Shown: positions 1,611 to 20,558, numbered from the stretch's first letter. The stretch is 64,000 nt of DNA from Emcibacteraceae bacterium (GCA_905612225.1 CAJQRG010000016.1:62001-126000); one strand, 5' to 3'. Numbers and translations are program-made. Notes: generated by a model not told the origin, from the sequence alone.

Positions 1611-3197
1611 TTAAATTTTAGCCGCACGCTTATCAAGTTCTGCTATTGTAATCCAGGCACCCTCAATAGCACCCGCCATCCAGCCTGAAAGGCGAGGGGC
1701 TATACAATCACCAGAAAATAATACGCGATTTTCACCTTTAAGTATGGTAGGTAATTTTTTTATACTGTCACCACGCCAACTGGACCAACCAGACTTATTA
1801 TACTTTTCATCTTCCCAAATAATACCAGCGGCTTTACCGTTGAAATTTTGTCTGTACTTTTCCGGATGTACATTTTCACCAGTAGACAGTGCATATTCAA
1901 TTTTTTCATCCATGTTCATTCCACTGAATGCTGTAGACCTACCTCCAAAAAGATATGAAGCTAATATTACACCGCCGTTCTGACCATGTAAATCAGCAGA
2001 CGGATATGCAATGGTGCCTGCCATACTGGTGGATGAGTTACCACCATAAATCATATCTTCAACCTCCCAAAAGCGTGTTTTCATCTGAAGGCCAAACTTT
2101 GTAACCTGACTTGGTGCAGGTGTTTTCATTGCATCAATTATGTCTTGGTTGAAATCGTTTTCAATTTCTGTGACTACTGCAAACGGTATGGTAGAAATAA
2201 GATAATCACCGGTTGTAGTTCTTTCGCGACCACTTTTTGTGTCTTTATAATTTATGGAAACACCGTCACTTGTTTGTGATATTTTTGTCACTTCTTTATT
2301 AAGTTTCATTGTGCCTCGGGGAAGGGCATCACGAAGTGCAAAAGATACTGCGTCCATCCCACCTATAGCCTGGAACATACAGGTTGGATGATCAGATGTA
2401 AGTTCTCTAGTTTCAATATTTAAATTGAGAAGTTCACTCAAGTCGTATGGTTCTGATAAGGTTCCATAATTCTCACCTGCCCCTTTATAACTGGAAAACC
2501 CCCGAATTTGATTTGCTTGATACTCAAATGTATCAGCATTAATTAAGCCCATACCTTTCAGGTAAGTAAGTAGTTTTTCTATATCTTCAGGAGATAACGT
2601 GTCGTCAAGTGCTCCACCCGTTGCACATTTGGCGAGTAGTTCAGCAACATGGCCTTTTCTATCAGCTTCCATATGAATACGGCGAACACGTTTATTATTT
2701 AAAGGGCCTTCAATTGAGTCTGAATATACATAACTTTGGCTACTATGGTTTAACATAATTTCTAACGGCACACCAAGTGTTCTACAATAGTGCAGCGTTG
2801 AGTGATGCTGACCTGGAATGCGCCATGCGCCATGATTTAAATATTGCCCATGTTCAAAATCACAAGTTTCAACTGACCCATCAGCTTGTGCCACTTTAGT
2901 TCCTTTGCGAGAGCAACTGGTTCTGCCACCCGCAAAATCACGTGCCTCTAAAAGCTCCACATCATAACCTTTTTTACTGAGTTCAAGAGCGGAAACCATT
3001 CCAGCAAGGCCTGCACCAAGAATAATTACCTTTTGGCCGTTACCAGATGTACTAAGCTTAGGTGGTGCGATCATGTCCGACGCAAAACTATTCTCAAAGC
3101 CACTTAGGGCCGTCATCACAGCTGCAGATCCACCAATCATACCAATGGTTTGTAGAAAATCTCGCTTGGATATAGGTTTATTTATTTGCTTGGACAT
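1611..3197 (-). CDS. Tat-exported flavin monoamine / L-amino-acid oxidase family protein
   Basis: This 528-residue flavoenzyme should oxidise an amine or L-amino acid using O2, giving NH3 and H2O2. The leader (residues 1-40) reads ISKRDFLQTIGM followed by a hydrophobic stretch and an A-S-A-type end, a KR variant of the Tat motif. The FAD dinucleotide motif VIILGAGLAGMVSALELSKK starts near residue 58. GAWRIPGQHH matches the region where L-amino-acid oxidases keep the carboxylate-binding Arg. RFWEVEDMIYGG is the LAAO-like FWE..D.I.GG block, and SGDCIAPRLSGWMAGAIEGA is the C-terminal FAD/active-site motif. Length is normal for the family. It lies beside a diverged paralogue and divergent from the dipeptidase gene. 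Substrate not deducible. Confidence 0.88.
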   Translation of the reverse strand: MSKQINKPISKRDFLQTIGMIGGSAAVMTALSGFENSFASDMIAPPKLSTSGNGQKVIILGAGLAGMVSALELSKKGYDVELLEARDFAGGRTSCSRKGTKVAQADGSVETCDFEHGQYLNHGAWRIPGQHHSTLHYCRTLGVPLEIMLNHSSQSYVYSDSIEGPLNNKRVRRIHMEADRKGHVAELLAKCATGGALDDTLSPEDIEKLLTYLKGMGLINADTFEYQANQIRGFSSYKGAGENYGTLSEPYDLSELLNLNIETRELTSDHPTCMFQAIGGMDAVSFALRDALPRGTMKLNKEVTKISQTSDGVSINYKDTKSGRERTTTGDYLISTIPFAVVTEIENDFNQDIIDAMKTPAPSQVTKFGLQMKTRFWEVEDMIYGGNSSTSMAGTIAYPSADLHGQNGGVILASYLFGGRSTAFSGMNMDEKIEYALSTGENVHPEKYRQNFNGKAAGIIWEDEKYNKSGWSSWRGDSIKKLPTILKGENRVLFSGDCIAPRLSGWMAGAIEGAWITIAELDKRAAKI

Positions 3198-3296: not shown

Positions 3297-3379
3297 ATGT
3301 TTTATGAAAATAAAGTTGTTATTCTACTAAACAGGCTGATAATATTAATTTACATAATTTGAAATAATTGGATGTTAAA

Positions 3380-4504
3380 ATGATTGATAGACGAAATTTT
3401 ATATCGGGTGCTTTGGCATTTCCTTTTTTAAGTGGTTTTGGAGGTAAAGTATTTGCGCAGAAGAGTGATCCAAATTTTACGCCAGCAATAATAGGAAAAC
3501 CTTGGGACCCAAAACGAAATGCACTTGTTTTTGATGCCATGGGAGAGATTAGAGACACATTTTCTGATGAATTAATTGAGGAAATGCTTGCCGCTGGTAT
3601 GCGAGGTATAGCGGTTACTTGCGGTAACCCAAGGCAAGATAACTTATCAGTGGAAGGTGGTTTTCAGTCTGCGCTTGAGGAAATGCTTTGGTTTGATAAA
3701 CATATAGAAGATAAATCCCAGTACTATTTAAAAGGAACCAAAGTTTTTGATATTGATAGGGCACGTGAAGAGGGAAAAATAGCAATTTTTTATCTTACGC
3801 AAAACTCAGATCATTTCATGCGTGATCTTGATAACGTTGATGTATTTTACGGGGTGGGACAACGTTCCTGTCAACTTACTTATAATTACCAAAACTATGC
3901 CGGCTCAGGCTGCATGGAACACCATGGTTCAGGCGTTACTGACTTCGGTGGCCGTTTGATTGAAAAATTAAATGATATAGGCATGATGATCGACTTAAGT
4001 CATGCTAATGTCCAAACTACACTTGATGCTGCGGATATTTCATCTCGACCTATCCATATTTCACATACAACATGTGCTAATGTTAATGAAAACCCACGAG
4101 CTATGCCTGACATTGTGTTAAAGGCTGTGGCTGAAAAAGGCGGAGTTGTTGGCATAACCCAGATGCGAACATTTATGACCTTGTCACGTTACGGGATGGT
4201 AGATCTTTATTTTGATCATATAATGCACGCTGTTAATGTTGCAGGTATTGACAATGTTTGTATAGGATCTGATAGGGATCACCGGCGTTTAGTTGTTACT
4301 CCGGAATACCTCGAGGAAATGCAGCGAGAGCAAGGACAGCGTTTTGATGTAAGGCGGGTCCCGCTTTATTTTGAAGAACTAAATTCCCCTCGTCGTATGG
4401 AAGTCATTTGGGATAAGTTAATAAAGCGGGGGCTTTCAGAGGATTCGGTAGAAAAAATTACCGGACTTAATATCTACAATTATTATAAAGAAATTTTAGG
4501 TTAA
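3380..4504 (+). CDS. Tat-exported M19 (membrane dipeptidase-like) protein with altered metal site
   Basis: The family cleaves dipeptides, including Cys-Gly and its S-conjugates, with a binuclear zinc site. I prefer ATG 3380 over the listed TTG 3368 because the leader DRRNFISGALAF...VFAQ then starts in the usual Tat position. M19 features include the block RLIEKLNDIGMMIDLSHAN with its DLSH histidine, the second histidine in IHISHTT, and VCIGSDRDHR near the C-terminus (usually GsDfDG). The early H-x-D metal motif, however, reads FDAMGEI. The place of the bridging Glu (usually EGG) reads YLTQNSD. Two ligand positions therefore look substituted, and activity or substrate may differ from ordinary dipeptidases. 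It is first in a plus-strand block followed 21 bases later by the gamma-glutamyltransferase gene. Confidence 0.82.
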   Translation: MIDRRNFISGALAFPFLSGFGGKVFAQKSDPNFTPAIIGKPWDPKRNALVFDAMGEIRDTFSDELIEEMLAAGMRGIAVTCGNPRQDNLSVEGGFQSALEEMLWFDKHIEDKSQYYLKGTKVFDIDRAREEGKIAIFYLTQNSDHFMRDLDNVDVFYGVGQRSCQLTYNYQNYAGSGCMEHHGSGVTDFGGRLIEKLNDIGMMIDLSHANVQTTLDAADISSRPIHISHTTCANVNENPRAMPDIVLKAVAEKGGVVGITQMRTFMTLSRYGMVDLYFDHIMHAVNVAGIDNVCIGSDRDHRRLVVTPEYLEEMQREQGQRFDVRRVPLYFEELNSPRRMEVIWDKLIKRGLSEDSVEKITGLNIYNYYKEILG

Positions 4505-7572: not shown

Positions 7573-8082
7573 ATGTTAACTGGTAAATTCCATAATCTAA
7601 CGAGACGCAACTTTACAATAGGTGTGGCAGTCTTTGGTTTTATTTTTGGTTGCCAAGTACCTATTTATTTAAAAAATTCAAAAAAAAGTGACGCCGATGG
7701 TCTTCTGCATATGAGATTAGACGGTAAAGTTGATGTTTATTCTGGTGGCGGCCATCTTGGTATTTATTCAGATTTTGACACTATAAAAATTTTAAAACAA
7801 ACAATGAATTTTAAAAATAGTGATTTTGTTATTATTACTGGTGATAATCCTGATCAACTTCCTGGATTTCTAGGGCAAAGCATACATCATATGAGTTTTA
7901 CAAATGCAAAAACTAACCATAGGGCCGCTTCTATTTTAAAACAAAAACTAAATAATCAACAGGGAGATATTTTTCTTAAGCCTACATATATTATTGATAA
8001 TGGGATTTCTAAAAAAACTCAAAATGTAATTAATAGCCTTAAACCAGAGGGAATTATTGTTGCTGTGGAGCATATTATTTAA
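7573..8082 (+). CDS. small Tat lipoprotein resembling only the N-terminal part of a molybdenum hydroxylase large subunit
   Basis: The leader LTRRNFTIGVAVFGFIFGC has a clear twin-arginine motif, a hydrophobic core and a Cys suited to lipidation. The mature 140 residues align by eye with the start of IorB/aldehyde-oxidase-type molybdopterin subunits. A strand like LHMRLDGKVDVYSGGGHLG matches the usual DG.V.V..g..elG; VIITGDNPDQLPGFLGQS matches gDt..tPd.g.t.GS; HRAASILKQKL and YIIDNGIS follow in the same order. The cofactor-binding remainder (over 500 residues) is absent, and the stop overlaps the next start as TAATG, so the gene is complete as it stands. It could be a domesticated domain or a decayed gene. 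Similarity is judged by eye and function is unknown. Confidence 0.55.
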   Translation: MLTGKFHNLTRRNFTIGVAVFGFIFGCQVPIYLKNSKKSDADGLLHMRLDGKVDVYSGGGHLGIYSDFDTIKILKQTMNFKNSDFVIITGDNPDQLPGFLGQSIHHMSFTNAKTNHRAASILKQKLNNQQGDIFLKPTYIIDNGISKKTQNVINSLKPEGIIVAVEHII

Positions 8083-16322: not shown

Positions 16323-17666
16323 TCAAATAGCATCAATTGCCATCTTCATGGCGTCTAGGGCACCGCGTAATTTATAATTAGTAGTGGCGAGGTTCATACG
16401 CATGTAACCCTCTCCACCTAGGCCATAGTTTTCGCCTGGGTTTAAATTTACGCCAGCCTTTTCTATAAAGAAATTTTTAAGCATATCGCCAACACGAGCA
16501 CCATCATCAGGCTTTCCTAGCTTTTTAGCAACTGAAGAGCAATCTAGAAAAGCAAGATAAGTACCCTCATGTTTACGGTATTTAACATCTTTCATACTTT
16601 CGTTACAAAAGTCCTCTAGAATATGGCAGTTACCATCTATGTACGATTGCGTATCATCCATATAGCTAGCACCGTGCAGATAGGCGGCATTACACGCTAT
16701 CATTCCGAGGGCATTAAGCGATCCACGTTGATGTCCACTCTTCTTAAGATTATCAATCATTTCCATGTTATCTGAGAAGAGGTAGGCAACATGGTGAGCT
16801 GCTAGATTAAAGGATTTACTGGTTGATTTCAGCGTATAGCTTGACATGGCGTACTTCTCACCCAGGGTTGCATACGGAGTATATGTGGCACCCTTATTAA
16901 CAAAATCACAATGTATTTCATCAGCTACAACCAGCACCCCTTTTTCAATACATAAGTCACCCATGGCTCTCATTTCAGTTGGGCTCCAGCAATTTCCAGT
17001 AGGATTTGCAGGATTGCAGAAAAGAATTATTTTAATATCATCCTTATCTATTTGCTTTGCCATAAGGTCTAGGTCCATTTCCCAGCGTCCATCAATAAGC
17101 CTGAGAGGGTTTTCAACAGAAGAAAATTGAGCATTACGAACAGTCCCAAAGAAACCTGAATATCCTGGGGTTTGAACGAGAACAGGTCCGCCACTAGTAT
17201 TGTGGAGTTTAAGAATGGATAGGCAGCCATCAAGAACGCCGTGCGAATTTAAAATACTACCGGGCTTTATATCTTGATTATATCGTTTTTTATTCCACGC
17301 TATAATATTTTCATAAAAATATGAAGGTGGACCTTGATATCCCCAATTCTGATGCCCCATTCGTTTCATTAGAGCCTCAGTTATATGAGGAAGGGTTCTA
17401 AAATCCATATCAGCAACCCCCATAGGAAAGGGTACATCGTGTGGTCTTGCATTTCTTCTGATACTATCCCACTTGTAGTCACCAGAGCCTATCCTGTTAA
17501 ATTCTTCATCTAGATCATAAGACATGGACATTGAAATATAACCCATTCCCTTGGCATTAACAGCAGATGGGATCGCTAGCCCGCCTCCGATTGCACTACC
17601 GATGAGTGCCGTTGCACTTGCACCTTTCATGAAAAAACGACGATTTAAATTTTTAGTATTTGACAT
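16323..17666 (-). CDS. Tat-exported PLP-dependent aminotransferase/C-S lyase of the MalY/PatB type
   Basis: A fold-type I PLP enzyme of 447 residues with a Tat leader: LNRRFFMKGASATALIGSAIGG, ending near VNAKG. The catalytic body follows MalY/PatB: MGVADMDFRTLPHITEAL, NSHGVLDGCL, CNPANPTGNCW, VVADEIHCDF, and the PLP lysine in KSTSKSFNLAAHH. NLNPGENYGLGGEGYMRMNLA is the C-terminal substrate-binding region. MalY/PatB members cleave C-S bonds of cystathionine or cysteine S-conjugates, or act as aminotransferases. Export by Tat makes sense for a protein that must fold around PLP in the cytoplasm. Its tandem paralogue lies upstream at 17789-19213. Reaction and substrate are unproven. Confidence 0.88.
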   Translation of the reverse strand: MSNTKNLNRRFFMKGASATALIGSAIGGGLAIPSAVNAKGMGYISMSMSYDLDEEFNRIGSGDYKWDSIRRNARPHDVPFPMGVADMDFRTLPHITEALMKRMGHQNWGYQGPPSYFYENIIAWNKKRYNQDIKPGSILNSHGVLDGCLSILKLHNTSGGPVLVQTPGYSGFFGTVRNAQFSSVENPLRLIDGRWEMDLDLMAKQIDKDDIKIILFCNPANPTGNCWSPTEMRAMGDLCIEKGVLVVADEIHCDFVNKGATYTPYATLGEKYAMSSYTLKSTSKSFNLAAHHVAYLFSDNMEMIDNLKKSGHQRGSLNALGMIACNAAYLHGASYMDDTQSYIDGNCHILEDFCNESMKDVKYRKHEGTYLAFLDCSSVAKKLGKPDDGARVGDMLKNFFIEKAGVNLNPGENYGLGGEGYMRMNLATTNYKLRGALDAMKMAIDAI

Positions 17667-17698
17667 TGTATTTTCCTTTTTAAAACATTACTAAATAT

Positions 17699-17727
17699 AG
17701 ATTGCATGAGTATATGCTATCTGTCAA
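17699..17727 (-). promoter_or_regulatory. candidate promoter of the first Tat aminotransferase
   Basis: On the minus strand TTGACA at 17727-17722 is followed after 17-22 bases by CAATCT or TATATT. The spacing to the better -10 is long, so the -35 is the only strong element. It lies about 55 bases before the ATG. Confidence 0.35.
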
Positions 17728-17788
17728 CGCTATGAATTCAAAAAAAAGGCCTCGCCAAATGGCAAAATCATTCTTTTGTTATAGCTAA

Positions 17789-19213
17789 TTATATTGACTT
17801 TATTGCAAACTCAATATTTTCCATTGCTTTGGTCAATGTTGTTCGGTTTGTGGCCAAGTTCATACGCATAAAACCATCACCGCCTTTACCATAATTTTCA
17901 CCCGGATTTATGTCGATTCTAGCGTTATCCAACATCCATTTTTTAAGATAGGATCCGCCGGTATATGTTTTAATACTTGTCACTCCAAAAAAGTCGGTGG
18001 CTGTGACGTTATTAGCATTATTATAAATATTAAGTTCAGACGCCTTTGTTTCGACATCTAACTTTTCAGAAAGTTCTCTGCAGTCAAGCCAAGCAAGATA
18101 AGTACCTTCTTGAACTTGGTACTTAATAATTGGAATACGGTCCGCACAAAATTTTTCAACATATTTTGCATTTTCTGTAAGATACAAGTTTTGTTCATCA
18201 ATATAGTCATCTCCGTGCTTTAGAGCTTCGTTTGATGCAATCATACCCATTATATTAAGGAGTAGGCGTTGATGTCCTCCTTTTAAAACTTTATCAATAT
18301 AAGATCGATTATGAGAAAACATATAGCCTGTTCTGTGTGAGGCTAAATTAAATGACTTACTGGTTGATTTATATGAAATGCTATTTTGAGCATATTCGTC
18401 ACCGAGGGAAGCGTAGGCTACATATTGATTGCCATTTGTGACAAAGTCGCAATGAATTTCATCAGCAATTACAAGACAATCATGGGCGTTGCAAATATCA
18501 CCCATTCTGCGCAGTTCGGCTGCCGTCCAACAATTTCCAGTAGGATTTTGTGGATTACAGAGGATATATAATTTAATACCTGAAGCAATTTGCAATTCAA
18601 AATCATCCCAGTCCACTGCATACCGACCAGTATCATTTCTGATCATTTCACTCTCTGCTTCATGCATATTGGCTTGATGGATAGTACTAAAAAAACTCGA
18701 ATAATTGGGAGTAAGAAGAAGTACACGATCACCATCCTTACCAAAAGCTTTTAGTGTAGAGAGAACTCCGTCCAGAACGCCCACGGAATTTAATATATTT
18801 CCCTTAGGTACATCTGCATCATACCTTCTTTTGTTCCAAGCAACAATATTTGCAGAGTAATCTAGGGGCGGCAATTCATACCCCCAATTTTCTGTTTCGA
18901 GACGTTTTTTTAGTGCTGAAGTCACTTGGGGTAATGTTCGAAAGTCCATATCAGCAATACCCATCCCTACATCAAGCTGGTTATCTGGATTAAACATTTT
19001 GATCATGTCAAATTTAATGCTGTTTGTACCAACACGGTTATAACCAGCATCAAAGTTTACTTTTTCATAAGAAGTTATTTCCTCATCAGTTGCCTGCTTT
19101 GGCTCGGAGCCAGTTTGTTCAGCACACCCTGTTAGGGTTGCAGTTCCGACTAGAGCAGCAACACCAGTTCCTTTAATAAAAAAACGACGATTAATATCTG
19201 TATTGGATTTCAT
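17789..19213 (-). CDS. Tat lipoprotein, PLP-dependent aminotransferase/C-S lyase of the MalY/PatB type
   Basis: Paralogue of the neighbour at 16323-17666, 474 residues. The leader INRRFFIKGTGVAALVGTATLTGC has both a Tat motif and a lipobox, so the enzyme is probably membrane-anchored on the periplasmic side. Conserved blocks are VGMGIADMDFRTLPQV, CNPQNPTGNCW, VIADEIHCDF, the PLP lysine in KSTSKSFNLASHR and DINPGENYGKGGDGFMRMN. Compared with its partner it carries an extra segment of about 25 residues around VETKASELNIYNNANNVTATDF before the C-terminal block. Each gene has its own promoter-like TTGACA. The pair looks like an old tandem duplication with one soluble and one anchored form. Confidence 0.87.
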   Translation of the reverse strand: MKSNTDINRRFFIKGTGVAALVGTATLTGCAEQTGSEPKQATDEEITSYEKVNFDAGYNRVGTNSIKFDMIKMFNPDNQLDVGMGIADMDFRTLPQVTSALKKRLETENWGYELPPLDYSANIVAWNKRRYDADVPKGNILNSVGVLDGVLSTLKAFGKDGDRVLLLTPNYSSFFSTIHQANMHEAESEMIRNDTGRYAVDWDDFELQIASGIKLYILCNPQNPTGNCWTAAELRRMGDICNAHDCLVIADEIHCDFVTNGNQYVAYASLGDEYAQNSISYKSTSKSFNLASHRTGYMFSHNRSYIDKVLKGGHQRLLLNIMGMIASNEALKHGDDYIDEQNLYLTENAKYVEKFCADRIPIIKYQVQEGTYLAWLDCRELSEKLDVETKASELNIYNNANNVTATDFFGVTSIKTYTGGSYLKKWMLDNARIDINPGENYGKGGDGFMRMNLATNRTTLTKAMENIEFAIKSI

Positions 19214-19247
19214 CTTTTATTTCCCTGATTAATTTTGTCCATTTAAT

Positions 19248-19391: not shown

Positions 19392-20558
19392 ATGCATAAC
19401 AGTAAAGTCAATCATAGTTCTGCTGAGAATAACAAGACTACTGCCAGTAGTTTAGGTAAATCAATTCGCGGAAACAAAAAACGGAAAAGAAAAAAGAACC
19501 GAAGTAACGTTTATGGTGTTGTTGATCTAGGTACCAATAACTGTCGGTTGTTGATTGCCATTGCAAAGGGCAACGGTTTTAAGGTTATAGATAGTTTCTC
19601 GCGCATTGTGCGCCTTGGTGAAGGTTTTCAAGAACAAAAAAAGATTTCTGATGAAGCTACGGAACGTACAATATTATCCCTAAAAATTTGTATGGACAAA
19701 ATGAAACGCAAAGGTGTCACCCGGATGTGGAATGTGGCCACACAGGCGTGTCGTGAAGCAGAAAATAGTAATGACTTTGTTAAAATTATTGAAGACAATA
19801 CAAAAATTAAACTAGATATTATTGATCCAAGAGAAGAAGCTCGCCTCGCAGTTCTTAGTTGTAAGGAACTTCTTGATACGAAATATAATAAAGGAATTAT
19901 CTTTGATATTGGGGGTGGCAGCACGGAAGTTATTTGGGTGGAGTTTTGTGAGAAAAAAATTCCTAAAATAATTGATTGGATATCTATACCACTAGGTGTG
20001 GTTAACCTCTCCGAAGAATATGGTACTAAAAAAGCGTTAACTGACAAAAAATATCTAGAAATAAAAAATCGTGTTAAAGAGTATCTAGTTCCTTTTGAGA
20101 AGAAAAATCTTATTAACGTTTCCATAGTTGATAATAACGTTCAACTTATGGGAACCTCTGGTACAGTTACAACCCTAACAAGTATGCTTCTTAAACAAAC
20201 TTTCTACGATCGTTCAAAGGTAGATGGAGCTTGGATGAAATCCAATCATTTAGTTAACTTGTGTAAAGACTTATCAATTATGGATTATGCTGAGCGGCTT
20301 AACCTAAATACACTTTCTAATGATAGGGCTGACCTGGTAGTGTCAGGGTGTGCAATTTTTGAGGCGCTTGCCGATATTTGGCCTATCCAAGATGTGCGGG
20401 TTGCAGATCGAGGCATTAGGGAAGGGATGTTACACCATTTGATAGATAAACAGCGTCGTAAAAATAAAGCAAACCGTCGTAATAAATCTGGAAAACGTAA
20501 AGGCCTGAATAAGAATAAAAATTTAATTATTAATACTCAGCAGATTAACGATGATTAA
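19392..20558 (+). CDS. Ppx/GppA family exopolyphosphatase / pppGpp phosphohydrolase
   Basis: Members hydrolyse polyphosphate or pppGpp. The first 35 residues are a basic tail (KSIRGNKKRKRKKNRSN), followed by the ASKHA phosphate-1 motif VYGVVDLGTNNCRLLIA and the RIVRLGEGF block. FDIGGGSTEVIWVE is the second phosphate motif and MGTSGTVTTLTSML the adenosine-region motif. VADRGIREGMLHHLI is the family C-terminal signature. At 388 residues it is the short single-module form. It also ends in a basic tail (RRKNKANRRNKSGKRKG). The gene overlaps rlmE by eight bases. Ppx or GppA activity cannot be told apart from sequence. Confidence 0.88.
   Translation: MHNSKVNHSSAENNKTTASSLGKSIRGNKKRKRKKNRSNVYGVVDLGTNNCRLLIAIAKGNGFKVIDSFSRIVRLGEGFQEQKKISDEATERTILSLKICMDKMKRKGVTRMWNVATQACREAENSNDFVKIIEDNTKIKLDIIDPREEARLAVLSCKELLDTKYNKGIIFDIGGGSTEVIWVEFCEKKIPKIIDWISIPLGVVNLSEEYGTKKALTDKKYLEIKNRVKEYLVPFEKKNLINVSIVDNNVQLMGTSGTVTTLTSMLLKQTFYDRSKVDGAWMKSNHLVNLCKDLSIMDYAERLNLNTLSNDRADLVVSGCAIFEALADIWPIQDVRVADRGIREGMLHHLIDKQRRKNKANRRNKSGKRKGLNKNKNLIINTQQINDD

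Follow-up and report, generated by a model that had tools for sequence, protein, structure and literature searches.

Background

The locus described here raises the question of whether two adjacent genes encode PLP enzymes of the MalY/PatB type that leave the cytoplasm by the Tat route and, if so, which reaction these enzymes might carry out in the periplasm. Both genes lie in a stretch of 64,000 nucleotides, here called the window, from an organism that is a member of a Kordiimonadaceae genus (UBA4441 group). An earlier note on this DNA had called attention to the pair, and its claims are taken up below together with the results that bear on them.

A tandem pair of leader-bearing genes

The two genes, PatB-A and PatB-B, are located on the same strand and separated by 123 bases, with PatB-B, the gene that contains a lipobox, upstream of PatB-A (Table 1). 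Both proteins retain the PLP lysine (K284 in PatB-A, K286 in PatB-B) and the DEIHCDF motif intact, as had been claimed. In most genomes of the genus a PatB-A or PatB-B gene is divergent from the gene that we call Ppx/GppA-like from a reading of its sequence.

Table 1. Positions of the pair, its sequence features and the associated genes (positions without an L prefix are those of the window).
Feature	Position	Strand	Remarks
PatB-A, soluble PatB/MalY-fold PLP enzyme with Tat leader	16323..17666	-	447 aa, intact ORF, ATG start
PatB-A Tat leader, ca. residues 1-39	17550..17666	-	kept in orthologues
PatB-A twin-arginine motif NRRFFMK	17625..17645	-	R9, R10, K14
PatB-A PLP lysine codon K284 (STSKSFN)	16815..16817	-	from alignment
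Shine-Dalgarno-like AAGGAAA, 5' of PatB-A	17672..17678	-	from sequence
PatB-B, PatB/MalY-fold PLP enzyme with Tat leader and predicted lipid anchor	17789..19213	-	474 aa, intact ORF, ATG start
PatB-B Tat leader, residues 1-29	19127..19213	-	
PatB-B twin-arginine motif NRRFFIK	19172..19192	-	
PatB-B lipobox LTGC, predicted lipidation at Cys30	19124..19135	-	from sequence
PatB-B PLP lysine codon K286	18356..18358	-	from alignment
Shine-Dalgarno-like AGGGA, 5' of PatB-B	19222..19226	-	from sequence
Ppx/GppA-like gene	19392..20558	+	divergent neighbour, synteny anchor outside the function
M19 membrane dipeptidase with Tat leader	3368..4504	+	PF01244
PatB-C, third Tat-leader paralogue of this genome	L039:2587-3969	+	
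RidA-type imine deaminase with own Tat leader, beside PatB-C	L039:4392-4937	-	
Human-SQOR-like SQR near a PatB-A-group gene, example	L066:12387-13640		G011
Five tandem Tat-leader PtaA/HisC-like aminotransferases	L040:3102-8980		own contig C65; RREWLAG, RRDWLVG, RRDWLKG, RRDWLKG, RREWLIG

Conservation of the Tat leaders

The leaders of PatB-A and PatB-B contain NRRFFMKG and NRRFFIKG, respectively, each followed by a weakly hydrophobic stretch. The PatB-A leader ends in a signal-peptidase-I-like VNA/K, cleavage at VNA/KGMG being predicted from the conserved xxA-KGMG pattern. Judged by motif inspection, the (S/T)RRxFLK-like twin-arginine motif, the h-region and the cleavage site are those of a Tat substrate. 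Of the 57 ORFs of at least 150 aa in the window, PatB-A and PatB-B alone show RRx[F/L..]xK within 45 residues of the start; the pattern occurred at 0 of 16,342 interior positions of the window proteins. Elsewhere in the window, a flavin amine oxidase (1611-3197, minus strand) has a KR-type, Tat-like leader, and a 169-aa protein (7573-8082, plus strand) with a weak MoCoBD_2 match below the cut-off has a TRRNF leader that ends in FGC, resembling a Tat lipoprotein.

In the 13 genomes of the genus that have such genes, every full-length paralogue (51/51) carries xRRx(F/L)xK near its N-terminus, and R9, R10 and K14 are invariant in an alignment of 21 divergent paralogues. Between orthologues, pN/pS was 0.30 in the leader vs 0.19 in the core for PatB-A, and 0.42 vs 0.21 for PatB-B, rough values with synonymous sites near saturation. 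These ratios indicate that the leader is translated and under selection, although the enzyme itself is more tightly constrained. All 13 genus genomes with a completeness of at least 90% contain TatC; it was not detected in the window's own MAG (54% complete). A binning artefact of this partial MAG was ruled out, since the same families and leaders are found in the single-contig 3.4 Mb genome G013 of the genus.

That the leaders are start-codon artefacts of cytoplasmic enzymes might be argued from the PatB relatives of other Pseudomonadota genera: none of the 37 proteins fetched has a leader, all of them beginning at the core, and in a few GC-rich outgroup loci the frame runs further upstream without a recognisable hydrophobic leader. 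Nevertheless, the conservation of the leader in 51/51 paralogues and the purifying selection on its codons make a misannotated start very unlikely, and ribosome-binding sites at the assigned starts and the invariant R-R and K also speak against it, so that we discarded misannotation and regard cytoplasmic enzymes with artefactual leaders as extremely improbable. The same conservation and selection bear out the claim of clear RRFF(M/I)KG leaders on both proteins, whose predicted export by Tat is strongly supported.

Restricted distribution of the lipobox

The LTGC of PatB-B fits the lipobox [LVI][ASTVI][GAS]C and follows the h-region. Such a lipobox is found in five of the 51 paralogues, every one a PatB-B orthologue (G000, G002, G004, G008 and G013). 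These make up one subclade, of five out of the nine PatB-B clade members in the tree, and the leaders of the remaining PatB-B orthologues end in an ordinary cleavage-site sequence. Since the lipobox is limited to this subclade, the predicted lipid anchor is a local feature, probably owing to a single gain or loss. The proposal that one of the enzymes is a lipoprotein is supported for this genome and fails as a general trait of the orthologues, and a conserved soluble/anchored pair as a functional unit was rejected, the lipobox being present in 5/51 members.

Fold and active site

PF00155 was the sole Pfam match of both proteins, and their best NCBIfam family was TIGR04350 (PatB C-S lyase), with 305.3 bits for PatB-A and 307.8 bits for PatB-B. 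Both scores are under the curated cut-off of 340 bits, so that the two proteins lie outside PatB membership as defined by NCBI; eight further paralogues scored 291-334 bits, which places all ten scored clade members below 340. For comparison, leaderless outgroup members reached 415-418 bits and a Tat-leader protein from locus L043, 424 bits. By sequence, the closest PDB entries were PatB-type C-S lyases in both cases (6qp3, B. subtilis PatB, and 4dgt for PatB-A; 9k71 and 3t32 for PatB-B). An AlphaFold2 model of PatB-A (pLDDT 70, pTM 0.73) was used in a Foldseek search, whose 42 best matches comprised C-S lyases of the family, proteins assigned to it putatively, MalY and OvoB. The top matches had TM (target) values of 0.82-0.86, and the model has the fold of the PatB/MalY group. 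The family scores of 305 and 308 bits, the PDB relatives and the Foldseek matches thus agree with the MalY/PatB-type fold of the earlier note.

Y110, Y169, N221, D249, K284 and R423 are invariant in 49/49 clade members, and the roles tested in PatB are kept, namely the PLP lysine, the Asp at the PLP ring, the Asn of NPxNP, the active-site Tyr and the Arg for the substrate carboxylate. The PLP lysine is also invariant in two further leader-bearing PatB proteins and in the 37 outgroup PatB. On the other hand, the Trp of the PMWVADMDF segment, present in 29/37 outgroup PatB, is replaced in 49/49 clade members (Gly in 47, Thr in two), and a basic residue is found at K+8 in every one of them. We take the loss of the Trp as a sign of a possible change in substrate choice. 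Considering this loss together with the scores below the PatB cut-off, substrate or chemistry may have changed in the clade.

Expansion of leader-bearing PLP enzymes in the genus

Leader-bearing PatB proteins constitute a genus-specific expansion with two to eight copies per genome, which we divided into PatB-A, PatB-A2, PatB-B and PatB-C (names coined here). In a maximum-likelihood tree, 49 members form one clade (100/100) apart from the 37 leaderless outgroup PatB. When a profile was run against 301 genomes from 80 genera of the order, the clade was detected in 13 genomes, all of one genus. The sole genus member without it is G010 (97% complete), which has TatC and in which the PtaA-like cluster and the M19 dipeptidase were not found either. 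The view that an exported pair is unusual was thus supported and, as the pair is part of an expansion of leader-bearing enzymes across the genus, understated.

Two Tat-leader proteins, L043:3421-4767 (G011; 424 bits, above the cut-off) and L044:8204-9538 (G008), fall on the PatB side of the tree. Because of this position, the leader was probably joined to the PatB fold twice, L043 and L044 representing a second, independent acquisition.

Other PLP enzymes of these genomes also bear Tat leaders. PtaA/HisC-like aminotransferases with such leaders are present in 5-9 copies in 12 of the 13 good genus genomes; those of contig C65 score 170-201 bits on NF051461, whose cut-off is 500. Tat leaders were found on 8/13 of the best class-I aminotransferase-fold matches of this partial genome, with similar sets in close relatives.

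Gene neighbourhoods

PatB-C lies within 4 kb of one or more Tat-leader RidA genes in 9/13 genomes. One flank holds, besides a DksA-like gene, one or two RidA-type proteins with Tat leaders, and the other a D-serine-dehydratase/D-threonine-aldolase-like gene and a DAO-fold FAD oxidoreductase. In relatives, the leader of the second RidA copy ends in LAAC, so that this copy is a predicted Tat lipoprotein. For most RidA-type proteins of the bacterial class, the alignment starts at about residue 20-35 of the query, so that the leader is not covered. The Rid domain of the Tat-leader RidA keeps the ARAA...LP segment, which we take to hold the catalytic Arg.

PatB-A-group copies are near, or tail to tail with, a sulfide:quinone oxidoreductase (SQR) gene in six genus genomes. 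The best PDB match of this SQR is human SQOR (E about 1e-91), and KCAGAPQK and SCPL, which presumably contain the two catalytic cysteines, are conserved. SQR was not found in G000 (partial), G002 and G007; being also convergent with PatB and not co-transcribed, it was rejected as an operon partner. Neither RidA nor SQR adjoins the window pair. The genes for RidA, SQR and peptide use are encoded on the other strand from PatB, and so are not in one operon with it.

The peptide-use region, to the left of the pair, comprises the amine oxidase with KR leader, the Tat-leader M19 dipeptidase, a gamma-glutamyltransferase, an M20 hydrolase, a Dpp-like transporter, an ALDH, an SDR and an S58 peptidase. 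Among the genus genomes it adjoins PatB in this one and G002 only. Part of a second copy of the amine oxidase, adjoining a PALP-fold gene that resembles diaminopropionate ammonia-lyase, is located just left of the window. The M19 dipeptidase, found in 11/13 good genus genomes and often as two copies close together, is near PatB genes in G000, G002 and G005 only and elsewhere in most relatives; it is a possible upstream step, weakly linked. A mercapturate-like route, in which gamma-glutamyltransferase, M19 dipeptidase, S58 peptidase and peptide transporter would feed PatB, is plausible from the left flank and was kept as a lead only, given that the cluster is beside PatB in just two genomes, that the gamma-glutamyltransferase and the S58 peptidase are leaderless and that the dipeptidase is mostly elsewhere.

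In G001 and G013, dapA-dapD-dapE is followed on the same strand, after about 140 bases, by PatB-A2 (L062:13977-18358 and L063:6410-10765). Membership of a dap operon was dismissed, as it concerns one paralogue in two genomes.

Possible reactions in the periplasm

The presence of a Tat-leader RidA next to PatB-C, although indirect, is the best functional clue, and lends plausibility to a periplasmic chemistry of amino acids or thiols. Elimination from cysteine-like substrates yields 2-aminoacrylate, so that the pairing of a RidA and a PatB-type enzyme that both carry Tat leaders favours periplasmic beta-elimination; the two genes are convergent, however, and RidA also serves imines from transaminases, oxidases and other sources. 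RidA is described as hydrolysing 2-aminoacrylate, which damages PLP enzymes (PMC5636819, PMC12172467). Our best explanation, about which we are evenly divided, is that the window pair are periplasmic beta-eliminating enzymes of the C-S lyase type. PatB-A and PatB-B would fold and bind their PLP while still in the cytoplasm and then cross the inner membrane via Tat, after which PatB-A would be freed into the periplasm and PatB-B would stay lipid-anchored. Their most likely reaction would be alpha,beta-elimination of amino acids derived from cysteine or of short S-conjugates, giving a thiol or sulfide plus 2-aminoacrylate, and the exported RidA-type imine deaminase, whose link to these enzymes we infer, would convert the latter into pyruvate and ammonia. 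Besides RidA, the conserved leaders, the family and structural matches, the retained catalytic residues and the SQR near PatB-A-group copies were counted in favour of this reading; the scores below the PatB cut-off, the lost Trp, the opposite strands of RidA and SQR and their absence beside the window pair were counted against it.

The main, real rival is a periplasmic aminotransferase, given that Tat-exported transaminases are proven (PtaA) and that PtaA-like proteins abound in these genomes. Such an enzyme would act, like PtaA, on amino acids that are either free or part of peptides, and its PLP would be regenerated on site from PMP. The Gly at the PatB Trp site resembles class-I aminotransferases, and we counted it here together with the loss of the Trp itself, the basic residue at K+8 in all members, the position of PatB-A2 downstream of dapA-dapD-dapE in two genomes, the 5-9 Tat-leader PtaA/HisC-like enzymes in the same genomes and the proven Tat export of the PLP enzymes PtaA and PvdN (PMC6206403). 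Nevertheless, the nearest solved structures and family relatives are C-S lyases, an amino acceptor would be required in the periplasm, and a RidA beside the paralogue better suits an enamine/imine product, so that we regard transamination as rather unlikely.

Racemization of amino acids or another PLP reaction, involving for instance D-amino acids near the peptidoglycan, has a precedent in the MalY of Lactobacillus sakei, an amino acid racemase (PMC5845896), and PatB-C does adjoin the D-serine-dehydratase-like gene and the DAO-fold oxidoreductase; these neighbours are, however, leaderless and presumably cytoplasmic, and the proposal seems improbable to us. We give still less weight to an exported protein that only binds or senses on a PLP fold. 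The clade-specific Trp change would suit it, and E. coli MalY doubles as a regulator of the maltose system, but the active-site lysine, Asp, Asn, Tyr and Arg are all kept in 49/49 members, whereas inactive PLP-fold proteins normally lose some of these residues; a non-catalytic role is very improbable.

Returning to beta-elimination, we advance more tentatively, and with some doubt, the idea that the genus moved a whole PLP amino-acid branch to the periplasm, comprising PatB-like beta-eliminating enzymes, PtaA/HisC-like transaminases and exported RidA guards, both soluble and lipid-anchored. Peptides and sulfur amino acids would be used there, and the toxic enamine removed in place.

Provided that the enzymes are active, an uncultured marine group would carry out elimination and transamination of amino acids in its periplasm, which has a bearing on the site of organic sulfur and nitrogen release in seawater. 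Questions are also raised about PLP loading before Tat export, about PLP upkeep or regeneration in the periplasm and about the need for RidA-type enamine quenching there.

Comparison with known systems

Tat export of PLP enzymes is already known from PvdN and PtaA, and few exported PLP enzymes have, to our knowledge, been established by experiment. Searches of titles and abstracts in one collection of open-access papers gave no report of an exported PatB/MalY-type enzyme, nor of such enzymes being expanded across a genus or having exported RidA partners. The PatB C-S lyases (TIGR04350; 6qp3 from B. subtilis, 6qp1/6qp2 from S. hominis, 4dgt from C. difficile) share with the window proteins the fold, about 30% core-wide identity and the tested catalytic residues, but the window clade has Tat leaders, a score below the cut-off and no PMW Trp, and the 37 relatives fetched are leaderless. 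MalY (E. coli, 1d2f/8bob) and cystalysin (1c7n) belong to the same fold group and have the same DEIHxD and SK(S/T)FN motifs; they are not known to have a Tat leader. OvoB (5z0q), the PLP lyase of ovothiol synthesis, has the fold of the PatB-A model (Foldseek E 3e-28) and is a cytoplasmic, biosynthetic C-S lyase with no known leader.

PvdN and PtaA of pseudomonads both serve pyoverdine. PvdN, which makes succinamide on pyoverdine, belongs to a different PLP-enzyme branch and is a Tat-exported PLP enzyme, as proposed for the window pair. It requires PLP binding before transport, and PtaA is exported folded by Tat and is active in the periplasm (PMC6206403). The PtaA family (NF051461, cut-off 500) is absent from the best 25 families of PatB-A and of PatB-B, for which the highest score is about 305. 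PtaA and the window pair are alike in being PLP fold-type I enzymes with a Tat route, predicted in the case of the pair; PtaA, however, is of the HisC/PRK09105 branch, outside of which the window proteins fall, and the genes of contig C65 (L040) are far more PtaA-like.
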